The translations under genes and the position numbers were made by a program. A stretch of DNA of 64,000 nucleotides from Planctomyces sp. SH-PL14 (GTDB lineage: Bacteria > Planctomycetota > Planctomycetia > Planctomycetales > Planctomycetaceae), in the NCBI RefSeq assembly GCF_001610835.1, contig NZ_CP011270.1:2250001-2314000 (forward strand), in the 5' to 3' direction. Shown piece by piece: positions 45,405-62,951 of this stretch. The notes under the pieces are model-generated. The model did not search any database and was not told the origin of the DNA. It was given only the letters and a program-made list of their open reading frames with translations. The first letter of the stretch is position 1; every line of letters begins with the position of its first letter.

Positions 45405-47342
45405 TTGGATGTTTGGGAGTCTGCCGGAAGTGAGCTGGTCGCGGAACACAGGCCAATGTTCAATCGCATTCGCACATCGTGCTGGGAATGGACCGCGGAA
45501 CGGATCCTCCGAAAGGCAAAACAACTCGAGCAATGCTCGAGCGACCGGCTCGAACGGGATCGTGCGGAACTGGGGGGCGCCGTCCGGCGCCGGCAACCGG
45601 TCTCTTCGATCATCGGCGAGGTCTTCGCGCTTGGCATCGAGACGACGCGGCGCGTGCTGGGCAAGAGGCACTATCCCGTCCAGGTCATGGGGGCGATCGC
45701 CCTGGCACGGGGGTTCGTGGCCGAGATGCAGACCGGTGAAGGGAAGACGTTGACCGCCGTCCTGCCGACATTGCTGCACGCCCTGGCCGGCAAAGGCTGC
45801 CATGTCCTGACCGCCAACGAATACCTCGCCCGCCGCGACGCCGCCGAGATGGCCCGGATCTTTGCGGAACTGGGGCTCACGACCGGCTGCGTCCTCGACG
45901 ACATGGACGATGACGCCCGCCGGACCGCCTACGCCTGCGACATCACCTATGGAACCGCCGCCCAGATCGGCTTCGATTTCCTCCGGGACCGCCTGAAACG
46001 GGGCCCCCATCCCGACGAAGCCGCCCCCAAGGGGGCGGCCGGAGGGTGGCGCGAGTCGAGAGTTCAGCGCGGACTTCACATGGCCCTAATCGACGAAATC
46101 GACAGCGTCCTGATCGACGAGGCGAAGACGCCGCTGATCATCGGCATCGAAGACCGGGACCGGCCGGAGATCGAGAGCCTGTACCGGTGGGCCGATCACT
46201 GCGCCCGGACCTTCGACCCGGCGGAGGATTTCCAGGTCGATCCCCGCACGAGACAGGTCGACCTGACGGACCTGGGCAGCCGCAAGGTGACGCTCCTCTC
46301 CAAACCGCTTGCCCTGGACCAGATCGATTCGGAGACGATCTGCCTGCACGTCGAACGGGCATTGACCGCGCATCGCGTTTTCCACCGGGATCGGGACTAC
46401 GTCGTACGGGAAGAGGAGATCGCGATCGTCGACGAGGGGACGGGCCGGATCATGGAGGGGCGGAAGTGGCAGGACGGACTCCATCAGGCGATCGAGGTCA
46501 AGGAACGGGCCCCCTTGTCCGCCCAGACAGGCTGTGCGGCGCGGATCACCGTCCAGTCGCTGTTTCGACGCTACGAGCATCTGGCCGGGATGACCGGGAC
46601 CGCCGGTCCCGCGCGGCGGGAGTTCCGGAGTGTCTATCGGCTCCCCGTCGTGCGGATCCCGACGCACCGCCGCTGCCTGCGGTTCGGACTTCCCCCCCGC
46701 GTCTTCCCGACGCTCCGGGCGAAATGGGAGGCGGTCGCGGAATCGACCCTCCAGGGGATCGCGACGGGACGGGCCGTTCTGATCGGGACTCCTTCCGTCG
46801 AGGCGTCGCAGGGGCTGAGCCGCATCCTCGCGGAGGCGGGCGTCGAGCATGAGGTCCTCAATGCGATCCGGCACGCCGAGGAAGCCCCCATCGTCGCGAG
46901 GGCGGGCGAAGCGGGACGGGTCACGGTGGCGACCAATATGGCGGGACGCGGGACCGACATCCTCCTCGCCGAATCGGTCCGCCGCGCCGGCGGGCTGCAT
47001 GTCATCGCCACGGAGCTCCACAGCTCGGCCCGGATCGACCGCCAGCTGGTCGGCCGCGCGGGCCGACAGGGGGATCCGGGGAGTTTTCAGTTCTTTCTAT
47101 CACTGGAGGACGAGCTGCTCCGCACCCTCCCTCCGTCGCGGCTCGCCCGCCTGCGGAAGGGGGGGCAGGCGTCGGGCTCGTCCGAGCTGGCTCCCGAGTG
47201 GGCCCGCCTCTTCGAGACAGCCCAGCGCCGCATCGAGATCGGGCAGTCGCGCCAGCGTCGACAACTGCTGACCACCGAGAGACAGCGGGCCCAGCGCTAC
47301 CACTACCTCAGACTGGACCCGTTCCTGGAGCTTACGGAATAA
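45405..47342 (+). CDS. Short SecA paralogue (SecA-like translocase ATPase)
   Basis: A 645-residue SecA-type motor, well below the 850-1000 residues of housekeeping SecA. Walker A is AEMQTGEGKTLTAVLP (GEGKT at 111-115). The Walker B/DEAD region is LIDEIDSVLIDEAKTPLIIG. A preprotein cross-linking domain-like segment follows, then the second motor domain with VATNMAGRGTDILL and GRAGRQGDPGSFQFFLSLED. After that only ~75 residues remain, so most of the helical scaffold/wing domain and the C-terminal zinc tail are missing. Start is TTG 45405; an ATG at 45456 is an alternative. It sits head-to-tail with a set of HlyD, M50 and TolC-like genes, suggesting a dedicated rather than general export role. 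Confidence 0.9.
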   Translation: MDVWESAGSELVAEHRPMFNRIRTSCWEWTAERILRKAKQLEQCSSDRLERDRAELGGAVRRRQPVSSIIGEVFALGIETTRRVLGKRHYPVQVMGAIALARGFVAEMQTGEGKTLTAVLPTLLHALAGKGCHVLTANEYLARRDAAEMARIFAELGLTTGCVLDDMDDDARRTAYACDITYGTAAQIGFDFLRDRLKRGPHPDEAAPKGAAGGWRESRVQRGLHMALIDEIDSVLIDEAKTPLIIGIEDRDRPEIESLYRWADHCARTFDPAEDFQVDPRTRQVDLTDLGSRKVTLLSKPLALDQIDSETICLHVERALTAHRVFHRDRDYVVREEEIAIVDEGTGRIMEGRKWQDGLHQAIEVKERAPLSAQTGCAARITVQSLFRRYEHLAGMTGTAGPARREFRSVYRLPVVRIPTHRRCLRFGLPPRVFPTLRAKWEAVAESTLQGIATGRAVLIGTPSVEASQGLSRILAEAGVEHEVLNAIRHAEEAPIVARAGEAGRVTVATNMAGRGTDILLAESVRRAGGLHVIATELHSSARIDRQLVGRAGRQGDPGSFQFFLSLEDELLRTLPPSRLARLRKGGQASGSSELAPEWARLFETAQRRIEIGQSRQRRQLLTTERQRAQRYHYLRLDPFLELTE

Positions 47343-47381
47343 GTCCCGTGATGGGGTGTCGCGGGGGGGGCGGGCCGCCGC

Positions 47382-49463
47382 TCACCACCATAGCTTCCGC
47401 TGCACGAACTCCAGCAGGTCGCCGAACAGCACGTAACCGAGGCTCCGCGGACCGCAGTGCAGCCGGGCGGTCACCTCGGCCCCGATCCTCCGACCCGGCA
47501 GGTCGTTGGGAACGATCTCCACGAAGACTTCGACGACGCTCCCCTTCTCCTGGGATTCGTTGGACCGGCTCCCGATGGCGGAGAGCGCCCCTCGCTTCAC
47601 CTGCGTGACCGCCGTCGCCGCCACGAACTCGACTTCGACCGGGGGCACCGGGGCGGCCGGGGCGGTCCCCGGCCCGCGGTGGGCCTCCAAGAGGTGCCCC
47701 ATCCGGTACTCCGGGACGTCGAGCTCCAGCCGCCACGGTCCGTCAACGTCCATAATCTGCAGCAGGAGGTCGCCCCGCTTGACCGGACGGTCCAGCAGGT
47801 TCTGTCGCGTCTGGAAGGTCGCCACGCATCCATTGGCGGGCGATCGAACGACGAGGCCCTCTTTTCGGCTGAGGACCTTCGCGCGGCGTAGCCGGGTCCC
47901 TTCCAGTTCAATCTCCACCTTGCGGAGTTCGCCCGCCAGACGCAGGGCCTCCTCTTCGTTGCCGCGCGCTCCGGCCCGCTCCCGTTGCTGCCCCAGGGAC
48001 TCGATCTGCTTCTGTTTCTCGCGAACGACGTTCTCCGCCTCGAGAAGCTCGGTCTCCAGGTCGTCGCTCCGCAACACCGCCAGCACGGTCCCCCGCTCCA
48101 CGGTCTGGCCGTTCTCGGCCGAGACATCCACCACGATCCCGTCCCACGGAGCGAAGATCTCGTGCTGGACCGCCGGCATCGCCTGGCCGCGGGCTTCGAC
48201 CCGGTACTCCCAGGGGACGAAGGCGAGCGCCCCCCCGACGAGGGCCAAGAGGGCACAGACCGCTCCGGCCAGGGCCAGCCGTCGTCCGCGGCCCCACCGG
48301 CAGGCGCGGCCGACCGCTTTCCATAGCGGTAGAAGGAAGATCGTCTCGTGGTCGCGGGCATTGCTCAGAGCGGCCGCGACCTGTTCCGCCACGAGCACGC
48401 CCCGGGCACGGACGAGGTCCGTCGGGGCGCTCTCCGAGAACTGCTCCAGGACCAGGCAACCGATCACCTCGCCCGCCGGGGGGCGGCGGCGATCGACGAG
48501 GTCCTGTTCGATCCGTTCGTGCGGGACGTTCTTCCGCAGCGGGAGGATCGTCACCATCCGGGACCGGCTCTCCTCAAGGAACCCTGCCAGCGGGTCCGCC
48601 AGAAACGAGGGGAACCCGTCGAGCGTCCCCTCGTAGAGGACCGGCTCTCCGTATCTGGACGCCTCGCGAGCCAGGGTTGCCAGCCGCCGGACGAGGTTCG
48701 CCCGATTCTGCAGGGACTCCTGTCCGCTCACCGCCGCCACGCGGCAGGACGATCCCGTGCGAAGGGCGACGCTGATCCGGTCGCACTCCAGCAGGACGCG
48801 GCCGTCGTTGGCGGCGACCTGGGCCACGGCGGAGACCGAGAGGCTCTGCTGCAGCGAGAGCACGAACGCGCTGAACGGTTCCCAGAACGGATCGGCGGCC
48901 GCAGCCGGCGCCGGAACGGGAGCCGCGTCGAGGCGGCTCAGGAGCGCGCCGATTTCGCTGCAGACAAGAGTCTGCCATTCCGGGTCATGCGGGGCGGCCG
49001 CCGGGAAGGCGAGTTCGAGGACGACCGTTCGCCCCGCTGCCCAATCGACACGTCGCCGGACAATCCGGACATCCGTTCCGGCCGGCGTGCTCCATTCGGC
49101 CGTGCTGACCGTTCCCGACTGGAAGGCGGCCCGGACGGCGTCCATGTGCCCCCCCTCCAACAGCAGGCGGCCTCCCGCGGCGACGAGACGGCTAACGCCG
49201 CCGCTGGCGACGAGTTGGAACCGGCCCGGAGCCTCCTGCTGCCACAGGAAGGCGGCCGCCAGGTGCTCGCCGTCCGATGCCGCGTCGAAGAAGCGGGCAA
49301 TCCGCGCCGGGCCGTTCCCCGGAGCGTCTCTCAGCTCCTCAGCCCGCTGTCGCGCCCAGGAAAGCCATACGGCCTGCGGCGACTCCGCCCTCATCGGTGA
49401 ATTCCTTGTTGCGATCTGTCTCCAGAGGGGCATAGCATCCAGTGGCTTTGCGACCGATTGCAA
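47382..49463 (-). CDS. GAF-domain membrane-fusion (HlyD-like) adaptor
   Basis: Up to 693 residues. Residues ~30-380 are cytosolic and contain one or two GAF-like sensory domains (SAVAQVAANDGRVLLECDRISV, ESRSRMVTILPLRKN, GEVIGCLVLEQFSE). One membrane helix follows (about 395-417, ALAGAVCALLALVGGALAFV). The periplasmic part starts with the lipoyl half-motif EIFAPWDGIVVDVSAENGQT, then a coiled-coil hairpin (LLEAENVVREKQKQIESLGQ), the second lipoyl half (KEGLVVRSPANGCVATF) and beta-barrel domains. It is divergent from the next gene with only 42 bases between them if the first start is used; in-frame ATGs at 49433 and 49394 leave more room. GAF on an adaptor is unusual and suggests cytosolic ligand control of export. 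Confidence 0.85.
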   Translation of the reverse strand: MQSVAKPLDAMPLWRQIATRNSPMRAESPQAVWLSWARQRAEELRDAPGNGPARIARFFDAASDGEHLAAAFLWQQEAPGRFQLVASGGVSRLVAAGGRLLLEGGHMDAVRAAFQSGTVSTAEWSTPAGTDVRIVRRRVDWAAGRTVVLELAFPAAAPHDPEWQTLVCSEIGALLSRLDAAPVPAPAAAADPFWEPFSAFVLSLQQSLSVSAVAQVAANDGRVLLECDRISVALRTGSSCRVAAVSGQESLQNRANLVRRLATLAREASRYGEPVLYEGTLDGFPSFLADPLAGFLEESRSRMVTILPLRKNVPHERIEQDLVDRRRPPAGEVIGCLVLEQFSESAPTDLVRARGVLVAEQVAAALSNARDHETIFLLPLWKAVGRACRWGRGRRLALAGAVCALLALVGGALAFVPWEYRVEARGQAMPAVQHEIFAPWDGIVVDVSAENGQTVERGTVLAVLRSDDLETELLEAENVVREKQKQIESLGQQRERAGARGNEEEALRLAGELRKVEIELEGTRLRRAKVLSRKEGLVVRSPANGCVATFQTRQNLLDRPVKRGDLLLQIMDVDGPWRLELDVPEYRMGHLLEAHRGPGTAPAAPVPPVEVEFVAATAVTQVKRGALSAIGSRSNESQEKGSVVEVFVEIVPNDLPGRRIGAEVTARLHCGPRSLGYVLFGDLLEFVQRKLWW

Positions 49464-49505
49464 GGTCGTCTTCCGATCCAGAACTCATCCAGTTAAGGGC
49501 CGTTC

Positions 49506-50444
49506 GTGACACCCTTGCGCTCGGGGTCCGCCGGCTGTCGGCATGCGACAGCCATCCTGCTCCTGTTGCTCGTGGCACGGCCCGCGGTCGCCGCGGAGGA
49601 ACCGCGCCGCGCTGCCGCGGAGGTCGAGTCCGTTCCCGCCCGGCTCCTCTTCGTCGACCGGCACTCACTGGCGTTCGAACGGGCCGGCGTCCTGGCCGAG
49701 GTCGCGGCCGAAGGAAGCTGCGTCCGACGGGGCGAGGTGGTCGCCCGGTTGAAGGCCGAGGTCGCGGCGGCCGCGCTGGCGGTGGCCCGGGCCCGCGTCG
49801 CGAATGAGGCAGAAGTCGTCGCGGCCCGATTGCAGTTCCAGGCGGCGGAGGCGGAGTTCGAGGCCGCTCAGGCCGCCAACTCCCGCGCGCCGGCGCTGAC
49901 CAGCCTGTCCCTCCCGCCGGTGTCCCTCAACGTCTTCGAGTCGACCGCGCTGAATCGGCTGCGGCTGGCCCGGGAAACCGCGGCGGCCGAGATCGAAAGG
50001 GCCCGGAAGGAACAGACCGTCCAGGAGCGCTCCCGCGACCAGGCGGCGGCGGAGTTGGAGTCGTTTCGGCTGCTCTCTCCCCTGGACGGACTGGTGACGC
50101 GAGGCTTCAAGCGGCAGGGGGAAGGAGCCCAGGGAGGAGAGACGGTTCTGGAAGTCCTCTCGACCCGGAGGATCCGCGTGGAGGCGGACATCCAGGTGGC
50201 CCAGACCGCGCGGCTCGCGGTTGGAGAGGAGATCGACGTGCTCGTCACCCGCATCCCCGGGGACGAGGCGGGTCAGGAGACGCGCCGCGCGAGACTCGGC
50301 TTCGTCGATCCGACCGTCGAGCGGGTCTCGCAGACCGTGCGGGTCTGGGCCGACATCGACAATGGGGACAACCGCCTTCGGGAAGGGCTCCCAGCGAAAC
50401 TCCTGCTTCCGGGCCGCGGACCGGCGGCCGGGACCGCGCGCTGA
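49506..50444 (+). CDS. Secreted HlyD/RND-type periplasmic adaptor subunit
   Basis: A 312-residue membrane-fusion protein. A signal peptide lies at about residues 14-31 (TAILLLLLVARPAVAAEE). The first lipoyl half is ERAGVLAEVAAEGSCVRRGE, a long coiled-coil hairpin spans ~85-185, the second lipoyl half is FRLLSPLDGLVTRGFKRQGE, and a beta-barrel domain follows (IRVEADIQVAQTARLAVGEE). Translation begins at GTG 49506. It ends 12 bases before the M50 fusion gene, indicating one operon. It presumably bridges the inner-membrane parts to the TolC-like protein. Confidence 0.88.
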   Translation: MTPLRSGSAGCRHATAILLLLLVARPAVAAEEPRRAAAEVESVPARLLFVDRHSLAFERAGVLAEVAAEGSCVRRGEVVARLKAEVAAAALAVARARVANEAEVVAARLQFQAAEAEFEAAQAANSRAPALTSLSLPPVSLNVFESTALNRLRLARETAAAEIERARKEQTVQERSRDQAAAELESFRLLSPLDGLVTRGFKRQGEGAQGGETVLEVLSTRRIRVEADIQVAQTARLAVGEEIDVLVTRIPGDEAGQETRRARLGFVDPTVERVSQTVRVWADIDNGDNRLREGLPAKLLLPGRGPAAGTAR

Positions 50445-50456
50445 GGAGAGACGAGG

Positions 50457-52682
50457 ATGCTTCAGGGATCGCTCGAACAGGGGGGGGCGGCGCTCGACCG
50501 TCCCGTCCCCTTCCGGAGACGGGTCGACCTCGACGTCGCTTGGATGGACTTTCGCGGGCGGCGATACGCCGTCCTCAAGGACCCGTTGTCTCTCCGCTAC
50601 CACCGGCTCTCCCTGGACCAGCACGGCGTCCTGGCGCGGCTCGACGGAGAGCGGAGTCTCCGCCAGATCCGGGCCGATCTCCAGAGGGAATTCCCATCAG
50701 AATACTTCGCGCTCCCGGACGTCCAGGGGGTAATCCTCGGGCTCCACGAAAAGGGGCTGCTCACGGCGCTGCGGATGGGACAAGGTCCGACACTCGCCCA
50801 CCGGGAACGGGAGCAGCAGAGACGGACGCTCTTCGCCGCCCTGAGGAACCCGCTGTCGATCCAGCTTCCAGGCTGGGATCCCGACCGGTTCCTGACGCGG
50901 CTCGAGCCGCTGGTCGGGTGGCTGTTTCGGCCGCTGACGCTTGCACTGGCCGGAGGAGTGATCGCCGGCGCGCTCGTCTTCGTGGCGGCTCACTTTCGGG
51001 ACGTGCAGAACCGGCTGCCGGAGTTCCAGCGGTTCTTCGGCTGGCCCAATCTCCTGTTCCTGTGGCTGACGCTGGCGACGATCAAGGTGGTCCATGAGCT
51101 GGGACACGGGTTCGCCTGCAAGCATTTCGGGCGGGAGTGCCATTCGATCGGCGTGATGCTCCTCGTCTTCAGCCCGACGATGTACTGCGACGTGACCGAC
51201 GCCTGGATGCTGCGGAGCAAGTGGGAGAGGATCCTGGTCAGCGCCGCCGGGATGTACTTCGAGGCCCTTCTCTCGACGGTGGCGCTCGTGGTGTGGTGGA
51301 ACACCGAACCGGGGCTGCTGCACTTCCTCTGTCTCAACACGTTCTTCGTCTCCGCCGTCTCGACGGTGATCTTCAACGCCAACCCACTGCTTCGGTACGA
51401 CGGCTACTACATCCTGTCCGACCTCCTCGAGATCCCGAACCTGCGGCAGACCGCCGACCGGCTCATGCAGCGGACCATCGCCCGGACTGGGCTCGGGATC
51501 GAGCTCCCGCCGCAACGGGACCTGCCCGAGTCGGGGAGGCCCTGGTTCCTGCTTTACGTCGTCGCGAGCGCAGTCTACCGCTGGATCGTCTTCGCCGGCA
51601 TCCTCACCTTCTTCTACACCGTCCTGAAGCCTTACCGGCTGCAGAGCCTGGGGATCGTGATGGCCGTCGCGACCGTCGGGCTGGCGCTCGGCGGAACCGT
51701 CATGAACTTCGTCAAAATGTTGAAAGAGCCTCGTCGCGATCCGCCGTCGGCGCGCCGCATCCTCATCGCCTCCGGGGTCCTGGCGGCGAGCCTCGCGGGA
51801 GTCCTCTTGCTGCCGGTGCCCTGGTCCATCGAGGCTCCATTTTACATCGAGCCCGTCAGGGCCGTTCACCTCTACAACACAGTGTCAGGAGAGATCGTCA
51901 AGAGGGAAGTCGGGGAGGGAGATTCTGTCGCGGCCGGGGATGTCGTGATCGTCCTCGACAGCCCCGAGTTCGAGGCGCGGTTCGACGCGGTGCGAACGGA
52001 TTTCGAGGCGTCCCTGGCGGAGGCGGAGGCGTGGGAGGCCGCGGGACGACCTGATGCCGTGGCCCTGGCTCGACAACGCGTGCGCTCGACCCAGGAGACG
52101 CTCAACCAATTGAAGGAAGAGTCTCATCGTCTTGTCGTGCGGAGCCCGATCGCAGGGAGAGTCTGCGCCCCGCCCCGCGTCGCCGCGCCGACCTTGGAGG
52201 TCGAACGTGAGCGTCTCTCTGGATGGTCAGGCACACCGCTCGACCGGAGGAATCTCGGAGCTTTCCTGCAGGAGCAAACCCACATAGCGACGATCGCCCC
52301 TGTGGAGCAATGGCAGGCGGTCCTCGTCATGGACCAGACGGAACGGGAAGAACTTTTGGTCGATCGTCCCGTTCGGTTGAAGCTCGAGGAACTCCCCCAG
52401 CGGGTCCTGGATGGGCGGATTGCAGAAATCTCCCACCGGCATCTGGAGCTTGCCCCGCGGGGCCTCTCCAATCGCTACGGCGGACCGCTGGTGACCGTGA
52501 CGGACCCGCAAGGACGGGAAAAGCTCACGAGCGTGACTTACCAGGCGATCGTCCCGCTGGACATCGAGTCAAACTTAGCCCGTAGTGGCATGCGCGGAAC
52601 GGCCCGCATCCATCTGACCGACCGATCGCTTGGGGAGTGGCTCTGGAGATCTTTTTGGACCACATTCCAGTTTCGACTGTAG
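50457..52682 (+). CDS. PqqD-like / M50 metallopeptidase / HlyD fusion protein
   Basis: A 741-residue three-part protein. Residues ~20-108 look like a PqqD/winged-helix module (YHRLSLDQHGVLARLDGERS), a fold that binds peptide substrates in RiPP systems. Residues ~155-470 are a polytopic M50-type peptidase: HELGH at 213-217 in KVVHELGHGFACKHFG and the second motif NANPLLRYDGYYILSD (309-324) with Asp315. The C-terminal ~260 residues are a HlyD-like periplasmic arm (LYNTVSGEIVKREVGEGDSV, then VVRSPIAGRVCAPP). GAGGAGAGACGAGG-like SD precedes the ATG. It follows the adaptor by 12 bases and precedes the TolC-like gene. A peptide-binding, processing and adaptor role in one export complex is inferred. 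Confidence 0.88.
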   Translation: MLQGSLEQGGAALDRPVPFRRRVDLDVAWMDFRGRRYAVLKDPLSLRYHRLSLDQHGVLARLDGERSLRQIRADLQREFPSEYFALPDVQGVILGLHEKGLLTALRMGQGPTLAHREREQQRRTLFAALRNPLSIQLPGWDPDRFLTRLEPLVGWLFRPLTLALAGGVIAGALVFVAAHFRDVQNRLPEFQRFFGWPNLLFLWLTLATIKVVHELGHGFACKHFGRECHSIGVMLLVFSPTMYCDVTDAWMLRSKWERILVSAAGMYFEALLSTVALVVWWNTEPGLLHFLCLNTFFVSAVSTVIFNANPLLRYDGYYILSDLLEIPNLRQTADRLMQRTIARTGLGIELPPQRDLPESGRPWFLLYVVASAVYRWIVFAGILTFFYTVLKPYRLQSLGIVMAVATVGLALGGTVMNFVKMLKEPRRDPPSARRILIASGVLAASLAGVLLLPVPWSIEAPFYIEPVRAVHLYNTVSGEIVKREVGEGDSVAAGDVVIVLDSPEFEARFDAVRTDFEASLAEAEAWEAAGRPDAVALARQRVRSTQETLNQLKEESHRLVVRSPIAGRVCAPPRVAAPTLEVERERLSGWSGTPLDRRNLGAFLQEQTHIATIAPVEQWQAVLVMDQTEREELLVDRPVRLKLEELPQRVLDGRIAEISHRHLELAPRGLSNRYGGPLVTVTDPQGREKLTSVTYQAIVPLDIESNLARSGMRGTARIHLTDRSLGEWLWRSFWTTFQFRL

Positions 52683-52816
52683 CGGTTGCGCCGGCGCTTC
52701 CGGCGGCTTTGGACCGGGACCGCAGGGGACGACGATACGAGCGGTCGACGGAACAGGGAGTCTCCGTCAGGGTCTTTCAATTCTCTTCTCCCACATCAAC
52801 GTGACGGATCCGCACG

Positions 52817-54694
52817 ATGGGCCAGCGGGAGGGCAGAGCGGGGCGACGCGGACGGTGCGCCCTCGTATGCCTCTGCGTCTTCAGTCTTGCTCTCTCTGCT
52901 TGCCGGTCTCGGTGCACACATAATGGAAACTCACCGTTAGTTGAGTTGCACGAGGCTCCCGCAAACTCTGCCGATTCGGTGTCACCAAGTAAAACGAGCC
53001 TCGTGTCATTTGAGGCGGTGCCGATCGACGAGCCTCTCCGGTTGAGAAACCGCAGAGACCTGGAGTCGTGGGACCTGCCGCTTCAGGAGGCGATCTTCGT
53101 CGCGTTGTCACGTGCCGAAGTGATTCGCCAGAACGGGCAGTTTTTTTCTCCGACCAACACGCTGCTCCGATCGCCCGACGGACTTCCTACGGTCTATGAC
53201 CCGGCGTTGCAGGAGTCCGGTGTTCTGTTCGGACAGCGTGGGGTTGAGGCGGCTCTGTCCGATTTCGACACCCAGTTCACCACGCGGACAGTTTGGGGGA
53301 ACAGCCAGCAGATTCAGAACAATCCGTTCATTGCCGGAGGGCTGCCAGCCGGTGCAACCTTGGATGAAGACGCGGCGCAGTTCCAGGCATCGTTGGACAA
53401 GACGCTTGCAACAGGCGGGCGAATCGGCATCAGCCACAATTGGAACTACTCCGCCAACAACTCCCTCGGACGGCTTCTCCCTTCGGTTTATGAAGGGAAT
53501 CTCCGCGCCGAGTTCCGGCAGCCGCTGCTGGCAGGAGCGGGAACCGAGTTCACGCGGATTGCGGGCCCCATCTCGGACAACATCCAGGGGGTGACGGGGG
53601 TCCAGCAGGGGGTCCTCATCGCCCGGATCAGCGGCAACATCACCGTCACCGAATTTGAGAGCAACGTCGCCAGTTTTCTGCGGGACGTCGAGCGGCAGTA
53701 TTGGCAGCTCCATCTCGCATATCGGACGATCGAAAGCGAGCTGGCGGGACTGCGGACTGCTCGCGAGATCTACGAGGTAGTGCAGGGCCGTGTTGGCGCC
53801 CAGGCTCCGGGCGGTGGAGCGGGACGGCTCGTCGAAGCCAGAGAAGGTGTTCTGCAATCAGAAAAACGCTCTCTGCAGGCTCTGGACGATCTTTATGCCG
53901 CGGAAGGTCAGCTCCGGCTGCTGATGGGACTGTCGGTCAATGACGGGTGCTTCATTCGGCCGAGCGATACCCCAGTCACGGCCGAGATCGCCCTCGACTG
54001 GGACTGCTCGCTCGGTGAGGCATTGGCACGCCGGCCGGAACTGCGTCGTCAGAAACTGGTTGTCGGAAGCGAGGAGCTTCAACTCATCGCGGCTGAGAAC
54101 CTCCTCCGTCCCCGGCTCGATCTCGTGGCTAGCCAACAGCTCAACGGGTTTGGGGACGACCTACTCGGGTCGGGCGAGGTCCCCGGCACGACCCGAGCGC
54201 TCGGAAGCGCCTACGGCCGCCTGTTTGGTTTGGAGGAGAGATCTTGGACCGCGGGCTTCGAGTATTCCCAGGTCATCGGACGTCGGTATGCCATCACTCA
54301 GGTGAGAAACCATGAGCTCCGCCTGGCCAAGGCCCAGGCCATCCTCCGGACGCAGGAGACGGAGATCAGCCACGAGCTGGCGGCGGCGTTTCGAGAGGTC
54401 GATCGGACTTGGCTCTCGCTCCGCAGCGAGACGGCGCTGCTGGATAATGCGCGGCTCCGCGTGGAAGTGGCCCGCCAGGAATACCTCGCCAATCGGGACG
54501 GGACCGCATTCCTGTCGCTCGAAGCGCTGAATCGTGCGGTGGAAACCCTCGCCAGGGCGGAGTCAGACATGGCGAAGGCCGAAGTCGACTACACGCTCTC
54601 GTTGACTGAAATCGAGTACCGCTGCGGACGGCTCCTGCAGTTCAACAACGTGAATCTCCAGGAAGATCTTCGGGCTGCCTGTCCTCCGCCGTGA
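52817..54694 (+). CDS. TolC-like outer-membrane efflux lipoprotein
   Basis: Up to 625 residues. A signal peptide ends in the lipobox LALSAC (Cys29). The mature protein has the two long helical OEP halves: SVAS-type first repeat around FESNVASFLRDVERQYWQLH and second around EISHELAAAFREVDRTWLSL, each followed by beta-strand-rich segments, as in TolC/OprM. LREVLARRPELRRQKLVVGS-like text (EALARRPELRRQKLV) is a family hallmark. It lies 134 bases after the M50 fusion on the same strand and is the obvious outer-membrane channel for the cluster. No clear ribosome-binding site precedes the ATG, so the start is uncertain. Confidence 0.88.
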   Translation: MGQREGRAGRRGRCALVCLCVFSLALSACRSRCTHNGNSPLVELHEAPANSADSVSPSKTSLVSFEAVPIDEPLRLRNRRDLESWDLPLQEAIFVALSRAEVIRQNGQFFSPTNTLLRSPDGLPTVYDPALQESGVLFGQRGVEAALSDFDTQFTTRTVWGNSQQIQNNPFIAGGLPAGATLDEDAAQFQASLDKTLATGGRIGISHNWNYSANNSLGRLLPSVYEGNLRAEFRQPLLAGAGTEFTRIAGPISDNIQGVTGVQQGVLIARISGNITVTEFESNVASFLRDVERQYWQLHLAYRTIESELAGLRTAREIYEVVQGRVGAQAPGGGAGRLVEAREGVLQSEKRSLQALDDLYAAEGQLRLLMGLSVNDGCFIRPSDTPVTAEIALDWDCSLGEALARRPELRRQKLVVGSEELQLIAAENLLRPRLDLVASQQLNGFGDDLLGSGEVPGTTRALGSAYGRLFGLEERSWTAGFEYSQVIGRRYAITQVRNHELRLAKAQAILRTQETEISHELAAAFREVDRTWLSLRSETALLDNARLRVEVARQEYLANRDGTAFLSLEALNRAVETLARAESDMAKAEVDYTLSLTEIEYRCGRLLQFNNVNLQEDLRAACPPP

Positions 54695-54767: not shown

Positions 54768-56117
54768 ATGCAACCGCAAATCCTTCTCGGCCTCGGGGCC
54801 GGACACTGCGGCCTGAATGTCCTGCTGGAGATTCTGAACCATCAGCCCCAGACCCGCCTAACGCTGGAGCAGTCTCCGCTCCTCCCCTGGCAGGCGATCC
54901 CCGGCCGGCCCGGGATCCGGGAGCGGTTTGCACGATGGCGGAAGAAGCCCGCCGCCGAGCGGATTGGTGATGTCGCGACCTTCTATCTTCCGTACCTTCG
55001 CGAGGCGATCGCGTTAGAGCCCAACCTCCGGGCCGTCTGTCTCCGCCGCCCCAAGGAGGAGATCGTGGCCGCCTATCTCCGCCATCTTGATCAGCCAGGC
55101 CGTCCGCGCCTCAACCACTGGTCGCGTTCTCCGGAGGTGGGGTGGACGCAGGACCTCGTCTGGACTCCCACCTTCCCGAAGTACGATGAGCCGGACCGCC
55201 AAGCCGCCCTCGAGCAGTACTGGGAGGACTACTATACGCAGGCGGACGAGCTGGCGAATCGCCATCCGGACAACGTCCTGCTCCTCGACACGGCGGAACT
55301 GGCCGAGCCTGCCGGTGTCCGGAGGCTTCTCCAGTTTGTCGGGATCCCGGAGGCGCAGCAGGTGGTCGTGCAGGCCCGTCCCCCAATTCGCTCTGCGGTC
55401 CGTACGGACGAGGCCGTTGCCGATGCTGATCCGCTCTCGCCGCGGCGGTGCGTCATCCTGGTCCCCAATTCGGGGTCGATCCATCCGGAGTGCGACCAGT
55501 CGCTACGGCAGCTTGAAGCCCGCGGATACGAGGTTCGGCGCGTCTCGGGTTACGCAGCCATCGACCAGGGACGAAACCAGATCGCGACCGATGCCCTCCG
55601 CGATGGCTTTGAGGAGACGTTCTGGATCGACTCGGATATCGGGTTCTCCCCGGAGAGCGTCGAGCGGATCCGGCAGCACGGCCTCCCGATCTGCTGCGGC
55701 ATCTATCCGCAGAAGGGGAAGCGGGCCCTGGCGTGCCACGTCCGCCCCGGGACGACGAAGATCCAGTTCGGAAAGACTGGTGGGCTGATTGAGATCCTCT
55801 ATGCCGGGACCGGATTTCTGCATGTCCGACGGCAGGTCTATCTCGACGTCGCGCAGAAGCTGCGGCTCCCGACCTGCAATGAACGATTCGACCGGCCGAC
55901 CTTCCCGTTCTTTCTGCCGATGGTGAAGCCGATCGAAGATGGGCACTGGTATCTGGCCGAGGACTACGCCTTCTGCGAGCGTGCCCGGCAGTGTGGACAC
56001 ATCGTCCAGGCCGACACCGGCGTCCGCCTGTGGCATCTTGGCCACTACCGTTACAGCTGGGAGGACGCCGGGAGGGAAACACCGCGGTTTGAGGATTTCA
56101 CGCTCAACCTGAACTGA
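54768..56117 (+). CDS. Sulfotransferase-like / glycosyltransferase-like fusion
   Basis: A 449-residue protein that seems to join two domains. The N-terminal ~200 residues resemble a sulfotransferase: GLGAGHCGLNVLLEILNHQP at the position of the PAPS-binding loop and LRAVCLRRPKEEIVAAYLRH at the 3'-phosphate loop, though the P-loop is not canonical. Residues ~225-445 look like a GT-A type glycosyltransferase (RRCVILVPNSGSIHPECDQS, FWIDSDIGFSPES with a DxD, and YLAEDYAFCERARQCG). The two halves might modify and extend one glycan or glycoprotein. It is 73 bases after the TolC-like gene and may belong to the same operon, perhaps modifying the exported cargo. Domain calls are by eye. Confidence 0.7.
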   Translation: MQPQILLGLGAGHCGLNVLLEILNHQPQTRLTLEQSPLLPWQAIPGRPGIRERFARWRKKPAAERIGDVATFYLPYLREAIALEPNLRAVCLRRPKEEIVAAYLRHLDQPGRPRLNHWSRSPEVGWTQDLVWTPTFPKYDEPDRQAALEQYWEDYYTQADELANRHPDNVLLLDTAELAEPAGVRRLLQFVGIPEAQQVVVQARPPIRSAVRTDEAVADADPLSPRRCVILVPNSGSIHPECDQSLRQLEARGYEVRRVSGYAAIDQGRNQIATDALRDGFEETFWIDSDIGFSPESVERIRQHGLPICCGIYPQKGKRALACHVRPGTTKIQFGKTGGLIEILYAGTGFLHVRRQVYLDVAQKLRLPTCNERFDRPTFPFFLPMVKPIEDGHWYLAEDYAFCERARQCGHIVQADTGVRLWHLGHYRYSWEDAGRETPRFEDFTLNLN

Positions 56118-56556: not shown

Positions 56557-56940
56557 GGGCGTCGTACCGAGGAGGGGACGCCGGTCTATCGGCACGACGA
56601 CGGTTCCACGCGCCCGGGCCGCCAAAAGTCGCCCCATGGTCAGATGGGCTGTCCACGGACCAGGGTGAGGGCCATTGTTGCCCCCCGTTAACCGGCACGC
56701 GGGGGCGTGCGTTCGGCGCGGCGCAGAGGACGCACCGCGAGCGGGAGCCACCGTCGCGGCTCGGCCGGAGCCTCGCCCTCCCATGGAAGCGAGAGCTTCT
56801 TTCGTCACTGACGGGACTCGTTCCGAATTTGCGCCGTGTTACCCCCCCCCCCGTTGAAACGGTGGGCTATTTCCTTCCGTCCCTTGCGGGACTGAGGACA
56901 TCGAACGTTGAGACCGAAGCGCGAGCGGGGCGGAATGAGC

Positions 56941-57272: not shown

Positions 57273-58663
57273 TACTACAGCTGTAGTTCACCGGGGTGGC
57301 GGGTCATGCCCCCGAGACCGGTAATGGCACGCTTTCGCGGTCTGTTGGTGTCGACGCCGCCAGTCAGGCCAATCCAACACGCGTTGCGGCGCCATCACTG
57401 TGGCGAGGAGCAGCCGGGTCAGCAGGCTGCGAACTTCCGGGACCGTCACCGGAATCAGGTCCTCCTCTTTTTGGGGGCCACGGCCTGCACGCGATGGCGG
57501 ATCACCGCCAGCGTCGCATGCGCCAGCATCGACAACGTGATGTGGCGATACCAGCCGGGCCAGGACCGGACCTCGTAGTCGTCCAGCCCCGTTTCCCGCT
57601 TCGCCTGCTCGAAGCACTCTTCGATGGCCCACCGGCTGCCGGCGATCTGGACCAGTTTCTTCAGAGGCGTTCCCTTCGGAGCGTGGGTGAAATAGTGAGC
57701 GATCTCGTCAGGATCGCTGATCGAACGACGCACCAGCCAGCCCCGCCCGAACCCCTCCTCATGGGGGCTGGGCCAAGAGACGAACGCCCAGTCATAAAGC
57801 CGCTCCCCCTTCGTACCGGGCCCGCACGACAGACGCTTCCAGTCTCGGGAGGGGATCCCCGCCAGATGCTGGTCGACGCGCACCCGCTTTCCCTTCAGGA
57901 ACAGGTGGATCTGGGACGAGACTGCGACGACATAGCCCAGCCCCCGCTCTTCGCACAGCCTGCGCAAAGCATGGTCCGAGCCGGAGACCTCGTCCGCCGT
58001 CACCCACTGGGCCAGGATCCCTGCCTCGAGCGCTCGTTTGAGCATCTGCCGGGCCAGCTCCGGCTTTGTGGCAAAAGTCACGGACTCCGGCACCTTGGCC
58101 ACCCGTCGCCGAGTGGGGTCTTCGGCCCACTCCTGCGGAAGGTACAAGGCACGATCGATCAAAGCGTGTCCGGCGGTGGCGCGGTACCCCAAGAAGACCC
58201 CCACTTGGCAGTTCTCAATCCTCCCCGCCGTTCCGCTGTATTGTCGCTTCACCCCGACAGACTTGTCTCCCTTCTTGAGGAACCCCGTCTCGTCAACGAT
58301 CAGGATGCCATCCGCTGTCCCCAGCTGTTCAGACACATAGCCCCGGAGATCGATTCGGACCTCATCAGCATCCCAATCAGCCCGCCCCAGGAAGTGCTGC
58401 AGATTAACGGGTGTTGGTTCCCCCAGTTCCTCCGCCAGTTGCCAGCCGTTCTTCCGCTCGATCCGACTGATCAGCCCCTGCAAGTAGCGCGTCGCCCGTC
58501 GACGCAGCTCGGAGCGGGAAAAGCGTGGCCCGATCCGCTTTCCGACCGCCTCGACTTCAACCATCCACTCCCGAACATCTTCTGTTGTCGGCATCCTTGC
58601 CTCCTGGGTTGGACAGGAAGACTCTATAAACACCTCGCATTTCTCTCAAATACAGCTGTAGTA
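57273..58663 (-). mobile_element. IS701-family insertion sequence
   Basis: A 1391-bp element with short inverted ends TACTACAGCTGTAGTT (57273-57288) and its near-complement AAATACAGCTGTAGTA (58648-58663). Flanking bases are CTAG on the left and CCAG on the right; IS701 elements usually duplicate a 4-bp YTAG target, so the duplication is imperfect or decayed. It carries one intact transposase. Confidence 0.85.
57455..58594 (-). CDS. IS701-family transposase
   Basis: A 379-residue DDE transposase that appears intact. The catalytic acids are in ILIVDETGFLKKGDKSVGV, AQWVTADEVSGSD and SRWAIEECFEQAKRETGLDD. YSGTAGRIENCQVGVFLGY and AYRA-like spacing are typical of IS701. The ATG at 58594 has AGGAGG five bases upstream and is preferred to the earlier in-frame start at 58633. 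The frame fills most of the element, so the copy could be active. Confidence 0.93.
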   Translation of the reverse strand: MPTTEDVREWMVEVEAVGKRIGPRFSRSELRRRATRYLQGLISRIERKNGWQLAEELGEPTPVNLQHFLGRADWDADEVRIDLRGYVSEQLGTADGILIVDETGFLKKGDKSVGVKRQYSGTAGRIENCQVGVFLGYRATAGHALIDRALYLPQEWAEDPTRRRVAKVPESVTFATKPELARQMLKRALEAGILAQWVTADEVSGSDHALRRLCEERGLGYVVAVSSQIHLFLKGKRVRVDQHLAGIPSRDWKRLSCGPGTKGERLYDWAFVSWPSPHEEGFGRGWLVRRSISDPDEIAHYFTHAPKGTPLKKLVQIAGSRWAIEECFEQAKRETGLDDYEVRSWPGWYRHITLSMLAHATLAVIRHRVQAVAPKKRRT

Positions 58664-58687
58664 CCAGAGCGTTTTCACAATTCGTGT

Positions 58688-59286
58688 TCAGTAGCCGCAG
58701 TGTTGGATGTAGTTCTGGCATTCGGACGGGGAGAAGCGGTCGAGGGCTTCTGCCAACGTCGCGCACAGCGTCTCGAACGTCTTGGACGCCGCTTTGCGGA
58801 GCAGCGTTTTGAGCTTCGAGTACGCGTTCTCGATGGGGTTCAGGTCCGGTGAGTATGGCGGGAGATACAGCAGCTTCGCTCCCGTCTGATGGACCAGTCT
58901 CTCGATCCGTTCATCCTTGTGAGGAGCGACATTGTCCAGGATGACGCATTCCCCCCGCTTGAGCGTCGGAGCCAGGGACTGCTCGACCCACACGGCAAAG
59001 GCATCTCTCGTCATCGCTCCCTCCAGGACGAGCGGAGCGGAGAGTCCAGTGGTCCGGAGGGCGCACAGAAACGTGAACGTCTTCCAGTGACTGAGCGGCT
59101 GATGGTCGACGACACGCTGCGAAGTCTCTCCCCACCCATACATCCGCAACAGGCCCGTCTGGACGGCCGTCTCGTCCAGGAACACCAGCCGCTCGGCCGG
59201 AATCCGCTTCCGCAACAGAATGTCCCACCAACGACGACGCTGCCGAACATCCGGCCGCAATTGCTCAGCGGCGTACAGGCCTTCTT
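58688..59286 (-). pseudogene. IS630-family transposase, 5'-truncated
   Basis: About 190 residues of the C-terminal DDE half of an IS630 transposase: first Asp in RLVFLDETAVQTGLLRM, second in CVILDNVAPHKDERIERLV and Glu in YLPPYSPDLNPIENAYSKLK. The frame can be followed upstream through LYAAEQLRPDVRQRRRWW to about 59286, where similarity ends and an aldo/keto reductase fragment begins on the other strand. The N-terminal helix-turn-helix part is gone. It cannot transpose by itself. Confidence 0.87.
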
Positions 59287-59559
59287 TTCCAGAACGCCGT
59301 GTTGATGTCCATCGCCCAAAAGCACGGCAAAAGTGTTGCCCAGGTCATCCTGCGGTGGCTGATTCAACGCTGCATCGTCGCGATTCCCAAGTCCGTGCGC
59401 AAAGAGCGGATCGCCGAGAACTTTCAGATCTTCGACTTCCAGCTCGACGGGGATGATCTCCAGGACATTGTTGGTCTGGAGACCGGGAAGAGCGCTATCT
59501 TCGATCACCGCGATCCAAAGATGGCAAAGTGGCTCGGGGCGGCCCAGCGGAACACCTAG
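59287..59559 (+). pseudogene. Aldo/keto reductase, C-terminal fragment
   Basis: The last ~90 residues of an aldo/keto reductase of the 2,5-diketogluconate reductase type. Family text is clear: SIAQKHGKSVAQVILRWLIQ, then RCIVAIPKSVRKERIAEN, the NADPH-binding end, and FDHRDPKMAKWL. The catalytic Asp, Tyr, Lys and His all lie upstream and are missing. The 5' part was replaced at about 59286 by the IS630 remnant, so this is a deletion or insertion scar. Confidence 0.85.
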
Positions 59560-59638
59560 GCTCTTTCAGGAAACGAAAGTCGCAGGATGCGGGACGAACG
59601 GCTGACTTCCGTCGCGTCCCGTGCTGCGGAGACGTCGC

Positions 59639-60003
59639 TCAGCCCGGCTTCGCCGCCTTGGCCGCCTGCTCGGTGACATCCAGACGCGCTTTCTTGCGAT
59701 CGGGGGCATTGACAGCCGATCCATCAGCCCGGAACTCGAAGACCTCGTCTTTTTCAGGACTGTATGCGGGCCATTCCGGCAGCCCCTTCCCGTTGGGACT
59801 TCCCGTCTTGGCGAAGTTCGCCCAATAGGTGTTCATCATCTTGGCCATCTCTTGATCCGAAGCAGCCACGTTCGATCGACCTCGACCGAACGGTGTCCCG
59901 AAGACGTAGGGAATTTCGGACGCGTGCGCCGCGCCGTAACGCATCCATTCTCGCATCGGAGGTGAGACGTAGGAGAACAGGTAGAGGTAGGCCGGAGTGC
60001 CAG
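59639..60003 (-). pseudogene. Type B carboxylesterase, C-terminal fragment
   Basis: About 120 residues of the C-terminus of a COesterase (type B carboxylesterase). [12 protein letters not shown], then [16 protein letters not shown] (the catalytic His is normally in the GAxH segment) and [27 protein letters not shown] are standard blocks. The N-terminal two thirds, including the nucleophile elbow, are cut off exactly at the left end of the adjacent IS4-type element (60004). Confidence 0.85.
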
Positions 60004-61474
60004 CCCTTTGAAGGTGCATCCTCCTTCATGGTAAACCGGTGTCATGTCGAGACATGCACAGGATTTCCAGGGAGGAGGCGACCATGGTTGGTCAATCGGT
60101 CCTCGACCGCTTCATTCAGCAGGCTCCGCTTTGTGTTATGGCCCGGGCGACGCTTGAGAAAGTCTTCGCCCCGCAAAGATTGGATGCCCTGTTTCAACGG
60201 ACGGCTGTCCGACAGTACGAACGGGAGCTTCTGTTCTCGACCGTCGTCGATCTCATGAGCCTGGTCGTCTGTCGCGTCACACCGTCCGTTCATCGGGCCT
60301 ATCAGCAGAAGAAGGCCCAGATTCCCGTCTCCATCCGGGCTCTCTACGACAAACTGGGGCATATCGAACCGGCCACGTCCCGAGAACTGGTGCGGCAGAC
60401 CGCCTCTGAGATGGCCGAGCTGATCCGGACGCTGCCGGCGATGGCGGCTCCCCTCCTTCCCGGATACCGGGTCAAGATTCTCGACGGCAACCACCTAGAG
60501 GGAACAGAGCATCGGCTCAAGCCGCTGCGAACTCAAGGAGGCGGAGCCTTGCCCGGCCAGTGCGTCGTCCTGCTCGATCCCCAGCTCCGCATGATCCTGG
60601 ACGTGATTCCTGACCTGGATGCCTACACCCAGGAGTGTCGTCTCTGCCTGCCGCTGTTGGAGGGGATCGAACCCAAGGATGTGGTGATCGACGATCGGAA
60701 CTTCTGTACGAGCGAACTCCTGTTCGGTCTGGCCCGACACGCCGCGTTCTTCATCACCCGGCAGCATCGGGGCCGGCTGCGATGGGAGGTTACCGGGAAA
60801 GCCAAATCGCTCGGCCGGGGCGATTCCGGCCGCCTGACGGAAGAGCCTGTCCGCCTGACGGATCCCACAACCGGTGAGGTCCTGCCGGTCCGCAGAATCA
60901 CCATCGAGTTGGACGAACCAACCCGGGATCACGACTCCACGCTCCACTTGCTGACGAACCTGCCCGCCAGTGAGGTCACCGCAGCACAGGTCGCTGAGCT
61001 GTATCGGGAGCGATGGACGATCGAGACAGCCTTCCAGGAACTGACGACACACCTGAGGTGTGAACTCAACACCCTTGGCTATCCGCCTGCGGCCCTCTTC
61101 GGCTTCTGCACGGCGGTTGCGTGCTACAACGTCCTGGCGGTCGTGCAGGCCGCTCTGGCTTCTGCTCATGGCCAGGAGTTCGTTGACGAGCAGTTCTCGC
61201 ACTGGCGGATGTCGGATGAGCTCAGCCGCACCTACGTCGGGATGATGATCGCGATTCCGGCGGATCAATGGGAACAGTATGGAACTCTTCCCACCGAAGC
61301 TCTCAGCCGGCAGCTCCACGTCTGGGCCCAGAGCGTCGATGTCATCCGATATCGCAAATCGATTCGTGGTCCCAAGACACGCACCAAACGTCCAGCCGCG
61401 AGGGCTCAGCACTTCTCGACCGACAGGCTTCTCAAGCAGCGGAGATCCAACACGGGATAGCCACCTTCAAAAGG
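60004..61474 (+). mobile_element. IS4-type insertion sequence 1
   Basis: A ~1471-bp element bounded by CCCTTTGAAGGTG (60004-60016) and CACCTTCAAAAGG (61462-61474), inverted repeats matching 12 of 13. No clear target duplication is seen (left flank GAGTGCCAG, right flank TTACCCCCTT), so one border may have been lost. It truncates the carboxylesterase gene and stands directly left of a related element. Confidence 0.8.
60084..61460 (+). CDS. IS4-type DDE transposase 1
   Basis: A 458-residue DDE_Tnp_1 transposase. The first Asp is in VKILDGNHLEGTEHRLKPLR, the second in DVVIDDRNFCTSELLFGLAR, and the Glu in YRERWTIETAFQELTTHLRC, giving the Y-(2)-R-(3)-E signature of IS4. AGGGAGGAGG lies 5 bases upstream of the ATG at 60084, which is therefore preferred to the upstream start. 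The frame is intact. It is clearly related to the transposase immediately downstream (same three motifs, same length). Confidence 0.93.
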   Translation: MVGQSVLDRFIQQAPLCVMARATLEKVFAPQRLDALFQRTAVRQYERELLFSTVVDLMSLVVCRVTPSVHRAYQQKKAQIPVSIRALYDKLGHIEPATSRELVRQTASEMAELIRTLPAMAAPLLPGYRVKILDGNHLEGTEHRLKPLRTQGGGALPGQCVVLLDPQLRMILDVIPDLDAYTQECRLCLPLLEGIEPKDVVIDDRNFCTSELLFGLARHAAFFITRQHRGRLRWEVTGKAKSLGRGDSGRLTEEPVRLTDPTTGEVLPVRRITIELDEPTRDHDSTLHLLTNLPASEVTAAQVAELYRERWTIETAFQELTTHLRCELNTLGYPPAALFGFCTAVACYNVLAVVQAALASAHGQEFVDEQFSHWRMSDELSRTYVGMMIAIPADQWEQYGTLPTEALSRQLHVWAQSVDVIRYRKSIRGPKTRTKRPAARAQHFSTDRLLKQRRSNTG

Positions 61475-61477
61475 TTA

Positions 61478-62951
61478 CCCCCTTGACCTACCCCTTTAAA
61501 GGTGAGCGAGTCAGTCCTTACCCTGTCTCTGTCTGGAGGTTGCGACGGACTCCTGGAGAGGACAACAGGGATGTTGCCAGCCGAAGTGTTGGAGCGTTTT
61601 GTCGAACGCTGTCCCGCCGCGGTCATGGTGCGGGCCGAGCGGCTGGATGAGGTCTTCCAGCGGGCCGCCCAGCGGCAATACAGCCGCCAGCTCCTGTTCT
61701 CGCAGCTCGTGGCGATCATGTCGGCTGTCGCCACCCGTTCGCAGCCGTCTGTCCATGCCGCCTATCTGGCGGCTCAGGACAAACTCGACATCTCACCCCA
61801 GGCCCTGTACGACAAACTTCGACGGCTTGAACCGGCCGTCACGGCCGCCCTGGTCCGCGAGACCGCCCGCGATGCCGCACGAGCCATCGATGCTCTGCCG
61901 GGCCTGCGGCCACCCGTGCTGACCGGGGGACTGAAGACGTACGACGTCTATTGTGTCGACGGGAATCACCTGACCAGCACGGAGCACCGGCTTGCCGAGT
62001 TGCGGACGACCCGCGAAGCGGCCCTCCCCGGACAGACGCTGGCCCTGCTGGACCTTCGTCGGGGGCTGATCACGGAACTTGTTCCCGGCGAGGATGGCCA
62101 TGCCCAGGAACGCTCGCTCGTCCCGGAGCTGCTGGAGCGGTTGCGGAAGGGGATGGTGCTCGTCGCCGACCGGAACTTCTGCACGAGCCGGATCCTGTTC
62201 GGAATCGTGGAACACGCGGCCAGCTTTGTGATCCGCCAGCATCGCTCGACGCTCTCCTGGGAGCGGGAGGGGAAGCGGCGGCGGATCGGCCGGACGGCGA
62301 CGGGGATGATGTTCGAGCAGACCCTGGACCTGAACTATGAGGGCCAGACGCTGCCGGTCCGGCGGCTGACGATCGAACTGGACGGACCGACGAACCAAGG
62401 GGAGAGCGAAGTCCACATCCTGACGAATCTTCCGGCTGAAACGGTCCCGCCCGGCGAGGTGGTGGAGGCGTACCGCCTGCGGTGGACGATCGAAGAGGCG
62501 TTCCAGTGTCTGACGGAGGTTCTGCGGTGCGAGGTGGAAACGCTGGGCTATCCGCGGGCGGCCCTGTTCTCGTTTGCCGTGGCGGTGGTGGCCTGGAACA
62601 CGTATGCGGTGGTCAAGGGGGCGCTGAAGTCGGTTCACGGCTGGGAGACGATCGAGGCGACGCTGTCCGACTATCACCTGATGCATGACGTGCTGCTGAC
62701 GCACTGCGGCCTGGAGATCGCTGTGGAGGCTTCGGCGTGGTGCTGGCACCAGGGGTTGTGCCCCCAGGGGCTGGCGAAGGAGCTGGTTCGTCGGGCGAAG
62801 ACGGTGAAGTTGTCCCGGTATCCCAAGCGGAAGCGAGGTCCGAAACACCCGCCTCCCGCGAAAACAGGACGCCGCAACGATCACCTTTCGACCGCCAGAC
62901 TCCTTGAGAAACGCAAACGCAAACGACCTTGAAAGGGGTAGGTCAAGGGGG
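61478..62951 (+). mobile_element. IS4-type insertion sequence 2
   Basis: Bounded by inverted repeats of 26 bases matching 25 of 26 (61478-61503, CCCCCTTGACCTACCCCTTT...; and 62926-62951). By analogy with IS 1 the true ends may be the inner CCCTTTAAAGGTG/complement (about 61492-62937), because the outer CCCCCTTGACC also occurs inside the dispersed repeat. It has removed one end of repeat copy I. Confidence 0.75.
61571..62932 (+). CDS. IS4-type DDE transposase 2
   Basis: A 453-residue DDE_Tnp_1 transposase. The catalytic acids are in YCVDGNHLTSTEHRLAELRT, MVLVADRNFCTSRILFGIVE and YRLRWTIEEAFQCLTEVLRC. The ATG at 61571 is chosen because it aligns with the start of transposase 1 and has GAGAGGA upstream; a GTG at 61502 lies inside the terminal inverted repeat. 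The frame is intact. The basic C-terminus (RKRGPKHPPP) parallels the RGPKTRTKRP end of transposase 1. Confidence 0.93.
   Translation: MLPAEVLERFVERCPAAVMVRAERLDEVFQRAAQRQYSRQLLFSQLVAIMSAVATRSQPSVHAAYLAAQDKLDISPQALYDKLRRLEPAVTAALVRETARDAARAIDALPGLRPPVLTGGLKTYDVYCVDGNHLTSTEHRLAELRTTREAALPGQTLALLDLRRGLITELVPGEDGHAQERSLVPELLERLRKGMVLVADRNFCTSRILFGIVEHAASFVIRQHRSTLSWEREGKRRRIGRTATGMMFEQTLDLNYEGQTLPVRRLTIELDGPTNQGESEVHILTNLPAETVPPGEVVEAYRLRWTIEEAFQCLTEVLRCEVETLGYPRAALFSFAVAVVAWNTYAVVKGALKSVHGWETIEATLSDYHLMHDVLLTHCGLEIAVEASAWCWHQGLCPQGLAKELVRRAKTVKLSRYPKRKRGPKHPPPAKTGRRNDHLSTARLLEKRKRKRP

Follow-up and report, generated by a model that had tools for sequence, protein, structure and literature searches.

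Introduction

Giant adhesins such as SiiE and LapA, a cargo of the Ig-like or RTX type, are secreted by classical type I systems through HlyD and TolC, using a C-terminal signal and an ABC motor. In C39 peptidase ABC exporters of the PCAT/LagD type, leader recognition, cleavage and export are combined on one chain. Closest to the locus that we describe here is the T1SS-like module with secondary SecA_DEAD proteins reported by Kamneva, Poudel and Ward (2015, PMC4452313), which comprises M50/HlyD, GAF/HlyD and truncated SecA proteins, sometimes with an OEP protein, and whose hosts include Planctomycetes and Proteobacteria. The text of that paper names no cargo, and mentions neither PqqD nor LEPR, giant proteins or adhesins. 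Fusion of a leader-recognition domain (RRE) to an M50 core has also been described: the intramembrane peptidase MpaP (NF041824; PMC10036551) depends on its RRE and has been assigned the removal of daptide leaders. M50 proteases act on other RiPPs too (PMC10885120), and those of the YydH/LiaK/EpeP type (NF058609) belong to loci for peptide maturation and export.

Both the module and RRE-M50 fusions are therefore already known. What we add, from analysis of the window (the whole 64,000-nucleotide stretch of Planctomyces sp. SH-PL14 DNA analysed here), is an RRE on the M50 protein of the module and a proposed class of cargo. We found neither the RRE on the module nor a link of LEPR-XLL proteins to this machine in the open literature; subscription journals and preprint servers lay outside that scope, and an earlier report is possible.

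Three unrelated folds on one chain

An earlier note on this DNA had read a 741-residue open reading frame with HELGH and NPLLRYDG motifs as a PqqD-like winged-helix N-terminus, an M50 core and a periplasmic lipoyl-type arm. The frame and both motifs are present, and Glu214 is the catalytic glutamate as had been claimed (Table 1). The product matches Pfam Peptidase_M50 (E=5e-8) and HlyD_3 (E=3e-5), both over cut-off. Since its Pfam match to PqqD is weak by itself (E=0.07), we used profile and structure comparisons for the N-terminus instead. A profile of 41 N-termini matched PqqD 3g2b at E=3.5e-4 and the lasso RREs TfuB1 (E=7e-4) and TbiB1 (E=4e-3). AlphaFold modelled the whole chain with a pLDDT of 86, and residues 1-118 alone, built from planctomycete rows only, with a pLDDT of 91; the latter is a winged helix with the order strand-strand-strand-helix-helix-helix.

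Comparison of the whole-chain model with solved structures matched residues 17-104 to 6jx3, the TfuB1 RRE with its leader (Z 9.9, rmsd 3.1, 84 aligned), residues 197-392 to RseP 9j82 (Z 10.7, rmsd 3.7, 160 aligned) and residues 431-726 to MacA (Z 15.7, rmsd 10.5, 239 aligned), with LipC and HlyD matched by the last region too. When the N-terminal domain was aligned alone, the leader-bound RREs 6jx3, 5v1u and 5v1v ranked top by Z (9.2-9.5), and a Foldseek search placed PqqD and these RREs within its first five ranks. The earlier note had named an unrelated fold for residues 1-110, together with homologues that never associate with peptide or protein export, as grounds for giving up its reading; by profile, AlphaFold model and structure alignment, this region has an RRE fold.

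The membrane core has the M50 fold and an intact active site, carrying the HExxH and NPxxxxDG-type motifs of site-2 proteases. In an alignment of 38 planctomycete homologues, all of which keep the three-domain architecture, H213, E214, H217, N309, P310, L311, D315 and G316 are invariant, and HExxH occurs at the correct spacing in 80 of 80 further homologues, the majority from outside the Planctomycetes. The arm has the lipoyl barrel-sandwich with helical hairpin of HlyD/MacA adaptors and gives PDB profile matches to MacA/MexA. Hydropathy and the model together suggest about seven membrane helices, an odd number that would put the RRE on the cytoplasmic side of the membrane and the arm on the periplasmic side. 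We conclude that three unrelated folds lie in series on one 741-residue chain, and that, given its conservation in distant homologues, this fusion architecture is far past chance.

Table 1. Features of the export locus and its downstream flank, in window coordinates.
Feature	Positions	Strand	Basis or remark
Truncated SecA-like ATPase, 645 aa	45405..47342	+	Pfam SecA_DEAD E=4e-93, P-loop_SecA 3e-52, SecA_PP_bind 2e-31
Long HlyD-type adaptor, homologous to the module's GAF-HlyD	47382..49463	-	HlyD_3 E=5e-8
HlyD/RND-type periplasmic adaptor	49506..50444	+	HlyD_D23 E=3e-13; 12 bases upstream of M50 gene
RRE-M50-HlyD fusion	50457..52682	+	ATG start, 741 aa plus stop
RRE/PqqD-like leader-recognition domain, residues 17-104	50505..50768	+	Profile and structure matches
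M50 site-2-protease membrane core, residues 197-392	51045..51632	+	RseP 9j82 match and Pfam M50
Zinc motif HELGH, residues 213-217, catalytic Glu214	51093..51107	+	H213, E214 and H217 invariant in homologues
NPLLRYDG, residues 309-316, third zinc ligand Asp315	51381..51404	+	N309, P310, L311, D315 and G316 invariant in homologues
MacA/HlyD-type periplasmic arm (lipoyl barrel-sandwich and helical hairpin), residues 431-726	51747..52634	+	MacA match
TolC-family outer-membrane channel (start codon uncertain)	52817..54694	+	OEP E=1e-12
Transposase-like ORF	57455..58633	-	By eye
Transposase-like ORF	58688..59260	-	By eye
Transposase-like ORF	60039..61460	+	By eye
Transposase-like ORF	61502..62932	+	By eye

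The window locus

The gene set of the Kamneva module (PMC4452313) is found in the window: at 45405-54694, an M50/HlyD gene stands with a truncated SecA_DEAD gene and further HlyD genes. The SecA-like protein keeps NBD1, PPXD and NBD2 and lacks the scaffold/wing C-domain, its match to the SecA profile ending near position 600 of 789. Its TGEGKT, DEID and GRAGRQGD motifs are intact, and it is a likely ATP-driven motor in loci of the window's type. Homologues of it lie beside M50-HlyD genes in 8/41 planctomycete and 54/80 other loci. The long HlyD-type adaptor has homologues in 25 of the 41 planctomycete loci; a GAF domain is matched in a proteobacterial counterpart (E=4e-10), with no such match in the window's own protein. 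The HlyD/RND-type adaptor was likewise found in 25/41 loci.

By Pfam and NCBIfam, the scanned genes of the locus include no ABC transporter ATPase, as would be found in a classical type I system, and none appears in annotated homologous operons; nor do the locus genes encode an ABC transporter with a C39 peptidase domain, the mark of a PCAT. The earlier note had compared the protein with C39 exporters of bacteriocins. The logic of that comparison is sensible, but it is a likeness in logic only: M50 stands here for C39, the locus is without an ABC ATPase, and the bacteriocin setting is not supported. The same note had placed recognition, cleavage and channel coupling on one chain; what stands of this is the presence of recognition-type, protease and arm domains inside a TolC/HlyD export locus, while the three acts themselves belong to the model proposed below.

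The protein shares with MpaP an RRE fused to an M50 core, and matches it with 189.3 bits over residues 47-414, but this is under the 300-bit cut-off, and it differs in its added HlyD arm and in having giant partners instead of short peptides. To the YydH/LiaK/EpeP model it scores 55.7 bits against a cut-off of 225, over the M50 core only.

Several neighbouring elements were also noted. The gene at 54768-56117 has no significant Pfam or NCBIfam match, nothing related to it is encoded next to the homologues, and it was dropped as a member of the locus. A small DUF3467 protein recurs beside M50/HlyD genes in Planctomycetes and Proteobacteria (L058:8375-8710, L059, L050, L052, L131:11821-12102) and may act in the system as a chaperone or adaptor. 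Downstream of the module, an Acido-Lenti-1 RNA match lies at 56847-56893 (37.3 bits against a gathering score of 37), and a run of transposase-like ORFs, assigned by eye from the sequence only, occupies 57455-62932.

Giant LEPR-XLL genes in Planctomycetes

Giant genes near homologues of the M50-HlyD gene start with a basic stretch followed by LExRxLL, the motif of the NCBIfam model NF012209 (LEPR-XLL). In planctomycetes this motif was first spotted in the M50-HlyD loci themselves, and it was for that reason that further tests were run. Across 59 related genomes, 57 of which have at least one copy of the M50-HlyD gene, eight NF012209 matches among the 150 listed lie within 10 kb of such a gene, against 1.2 expected (P 2e-5). 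The two relatives lacking M50-HlyD gave no NF012209 match and no giant carrying the motif. The motif with a basic leader was present in 10/41 loci centred on M50, of which two are probably wrong-frame ORFs, compared with none of 40 control loci drawn from those genomes (Fisher 6e-4).

The 8.44 Mb genome of Planctomyces sp. SH-PL14 itself has three M50-HlyD paralogues besides the window copy, and three giant motif ORFs, of 3043 (LEARTLLSG), 4734 (LEDRRLLSA) and 4357 codons (LEPRIVLDA), the last of which adjoins one of the paralogues. A motif scan found no LEPR-XLL motif in the ORFs of the window, and no giant lies beside the window's own M50-HlyD copy; its substrates would thus be encoded elsewhere, or are not yet recognised. 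Elsewhere in the phylum, one planctomycete genome (G101, L219) has 42 LEPR-XLL matches, so that a small number of machines, or even a single one, may handle many substrates. At another locus (L054:885-3578), a few genes from M50-HlyD, the encoded LEPR-XLL protein combines RTX repeats with a haem peroxidase domain of the animal type, from which we suggest that the cargo may include enzymes besides adhesins.

Homologous operons in Proteobacteria

A tblastn search of plasmids found M50-HlyD homologues in Alpha- and Gammaproteobacteria. Where the N-terminus of the large gene of the operon can be read, it carries the motif in seven of eight cases. Pseudosulfitobacter has a giant of 12.9k aa with LEPRFLLSAD, and Pontibrevibacter one of 10.6k aa with MEPRVLLSAD, both named 'LEPR-XLL domain-containing protein' by NCBI; the giants of Methylosinus, Kosakonia and Azospirillum carry LEPRVLLNAD, LEPRMLFDGA and LEPRFMFDAAG respectively. 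In Tistrella, the motif gene (LEPRMMFDAAG) lies downstream. The sole exception is Phyllobacterium sp. 628 (L142), in which the large neighbouring gene has an HrpK domain in its annotation and no LEPR-XLL motif.

These operons are of two types. The first consists of the giant, GAF-HlyD, M50-HlyD, SecA and HlyD, with TolC in some, while the second, or E. coli type, consists of the giant, TolC, two HlyD genes and M50-HlyD, and is without SecA. Plasmid pABWA45_1 of E. coli (L128) has such a SecA-less operon, encoding a 4,457-residue protein with LESRQLF (LESRQLFDGA). E. coli-type operons contain no ATPase gene, and an energy source is not evident there. The motif type (LLSAD or LFDGA) seems to track the clade of the M50 protein, as judged from few operons. 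Among 5,426 complete E. coli genomes, 24 have the adaptor and M50 genes, for the most part on plasmids. Taken as a whole, the M50-HlyD system is near-universal in the sampled planctomycete relatives and patchy in Proteobacteria, where it extends to some E. coli plasmids.

Association at the level of genomes

A profile of M50-HlyD drew 80 loci, 45 of which lie in 44 genomes that we searched for LEPR-XLL. All 44, chosen for the M50 gene alone, gave an NF012209 match at E<=1, and 42 of them exceeded the curated cut-off; many of these matches fall in ORFs of 5,000-14,000 codons. At E<=1e-3, 14 well-known control genomes gave no LEPR-XLL match.

We then have the counts for two families of genomes, in which carriers and non-carriers can be compared. 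In the Thetidibacter halocola family (149 genomes), 17 have both genes, 6 the M50 gene only, 2 LEPR-XLL only and 124 neither (Fisher 1.7e-15); the corresponding numbers for the Achromobacter piechaudii family (151 genomes) are 11, 12, 0 and 128 (Fisher 8e-11). These Fisher values overstate independence, because the genomes are related and shared ancestry is ignored. Pooling the two families, the M50 gene is present in 28/30 genomes with LEPR-XLL and in 18/270 others. Those 18 genomes have no LEPR-XLL match at E<=1e-3, and a divergent motif of the 'LFDGA' type may have been missed in them.

The two genes are usually close neighbours. In 22 of 26 tabulated pairs on the same contig and strand, 1.6-4.1 kb separate the giant from the M50 gene, and the giant is almost always directly upstream. 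Outside this table are a giant lying downstream of the M50 gene by 0.2 kb (G091 C12), an opposite-strand pair ∼26 kb apart (G152), a pair separated by more than 1 Mb (G371) and further pairs split between contigs. LEPR-XLL open frames of 17,824 (G171:C4:103221) and 19,455 codons (G364:C3:192283) adjoin M50-HlyD genes; to our knowledge, they are among the longest bacterial ORFs. At both the operon and the genome level, then, the genetic link of this export machine to LEPR-XLL giants is strong.

Proposed mechanism and alternatives

Our preferred explanation, which we consider probable, is that the 741-residue protein serves a tripartite exporter both as its gate in the inner membrane and as its leader peptidase, the cargo being giant surface-type proteins with an N-terminal LEPR-XLL leader. 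The cytoplasmic RRE would bind this leader, a basic stretch with LExRxLL at its end, and the M50 core, situated beside it in the membrane, would clip the leader at or just past this motif. The giant chain would then travel by way of the periplasmic HlyD arm of the same protein, through the partner HlyD and GAF-HlyD adaptors, to TolC and the cell surface, with truncated SecA driving export by ATP in those loci that have it. The three folds, the intact active site, the module and the genetic link to LEPR-XLL giants come from computation; that the RRE binds the leader, that cleavage takes place and where, that SecA is the motor, and in what order these steps follow, we infer. The largest gap in the model is energy, since operons of the E. 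coli type are without a gene for an ATPase. The daptide peptidase MpaP provides a precedent for RRE-dependent leader removal within the membrane (PMC10036551). Achromobacter ArtA (PMC9430717) was considered as experimental support and rejected, as it is a classical T1SS adhesin.

Two other explanations accept that LEPR-XLL giants are exported. The M50 part could be a mere pore or scaffold, with its protease unused on the cargo and the leader serving as an address tag. Kamneva et al. (PMC4452313) suggested that the M50 protein forms a trans-membrane pore in place of the ABC transporter, and in the E. coli-type operon M50-HlyD alone has an M50-type polytopic membrane domain. However, the zinc ligands and the catalytic glutamate are invariant in very distant homologues, which would be needless in a pure pore, and the protein is joined to an RRE; we regard this as unlikely. 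Alternatively, another component, either the SecA-like protein or one of the partner adaptors, might read the motif, leaving RRE-M50 to quality control or some other cleavage. Truncated SecA retains its preprotein-binding domain and the adaptors are co-encoded, yet neither SecA nor the GAF adaptor is present in E. coli-type operons, which keep M50-HlyD and the motif, and the RRE fold is the classic reader of leaders. We rank this second alternative just below the first.

The remaining explanations dispense with giant cargo. Cleavage and export of short modified peptides, in the manner of MpaP (daptides) or YydH/EpeP (epipeptides), would suit the RRE fold and the fact that the nearest named NCBIfam families are the daptide metalloprotease and YydH/LiaK. 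Both family scores are under cut-off, however, and it is giants that recur near homologues. The earlier note had looked to short precursor genes in these neighbourhoods; among the clustered neighbour ORFs of at least 70 aa in the 41 loci, neither a short precursor nor a tailoring enzyme is encoded recurrently, and the sole recurrent small gene is that for DUF3467. We hold a role in bacteriocin or RiPP maturation to be improbable. Many such genes are annotated as parts of efflux pumps, and the HlyD_D23/RND-adaptor domains and TolC would fit a small-molecule or metal pump with odd adaptors. The window locus, however, contains no RND, ABC or MFS pump, and efflux leaves the RRE, the M50 core and the link to LEPR-XLL unexplained; it is the explanation in which we place least belief.

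Implications

Returning to export of LEPR-XLL giants, we also favour, with somewhat less assurance than the role of the 741-residue protein itself, the broader view that this secretion system is distinct, widespread and independent of any ABC transporter. It would handle giants of up to ∼19,000 residues, among the largest of bacterial proteins, whose LEPR-XLL leader is read by the RRE and cut by the M50 peptidase of the conduit. One branch would be driven by a motor derived from SecA, and the other, found on E. coli plasmids, by another source of energy. The common tag of the proposed system is N-terminal, whereas SiiE and LapA are secreted by a C-terminal signal. Pairing LEPR-XLL, a named tag at the start of giant proteins, with the M50/SecA/HlyD module, a secretion candidate that had no cargo, gives each a likely partner. 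If this pairing is true, the leader logic of RiPPs, an RRE combined with a peptidase, serves the export of giant adhesin-like proteins too, and a tripartite exporter can work without an ABC transporter.
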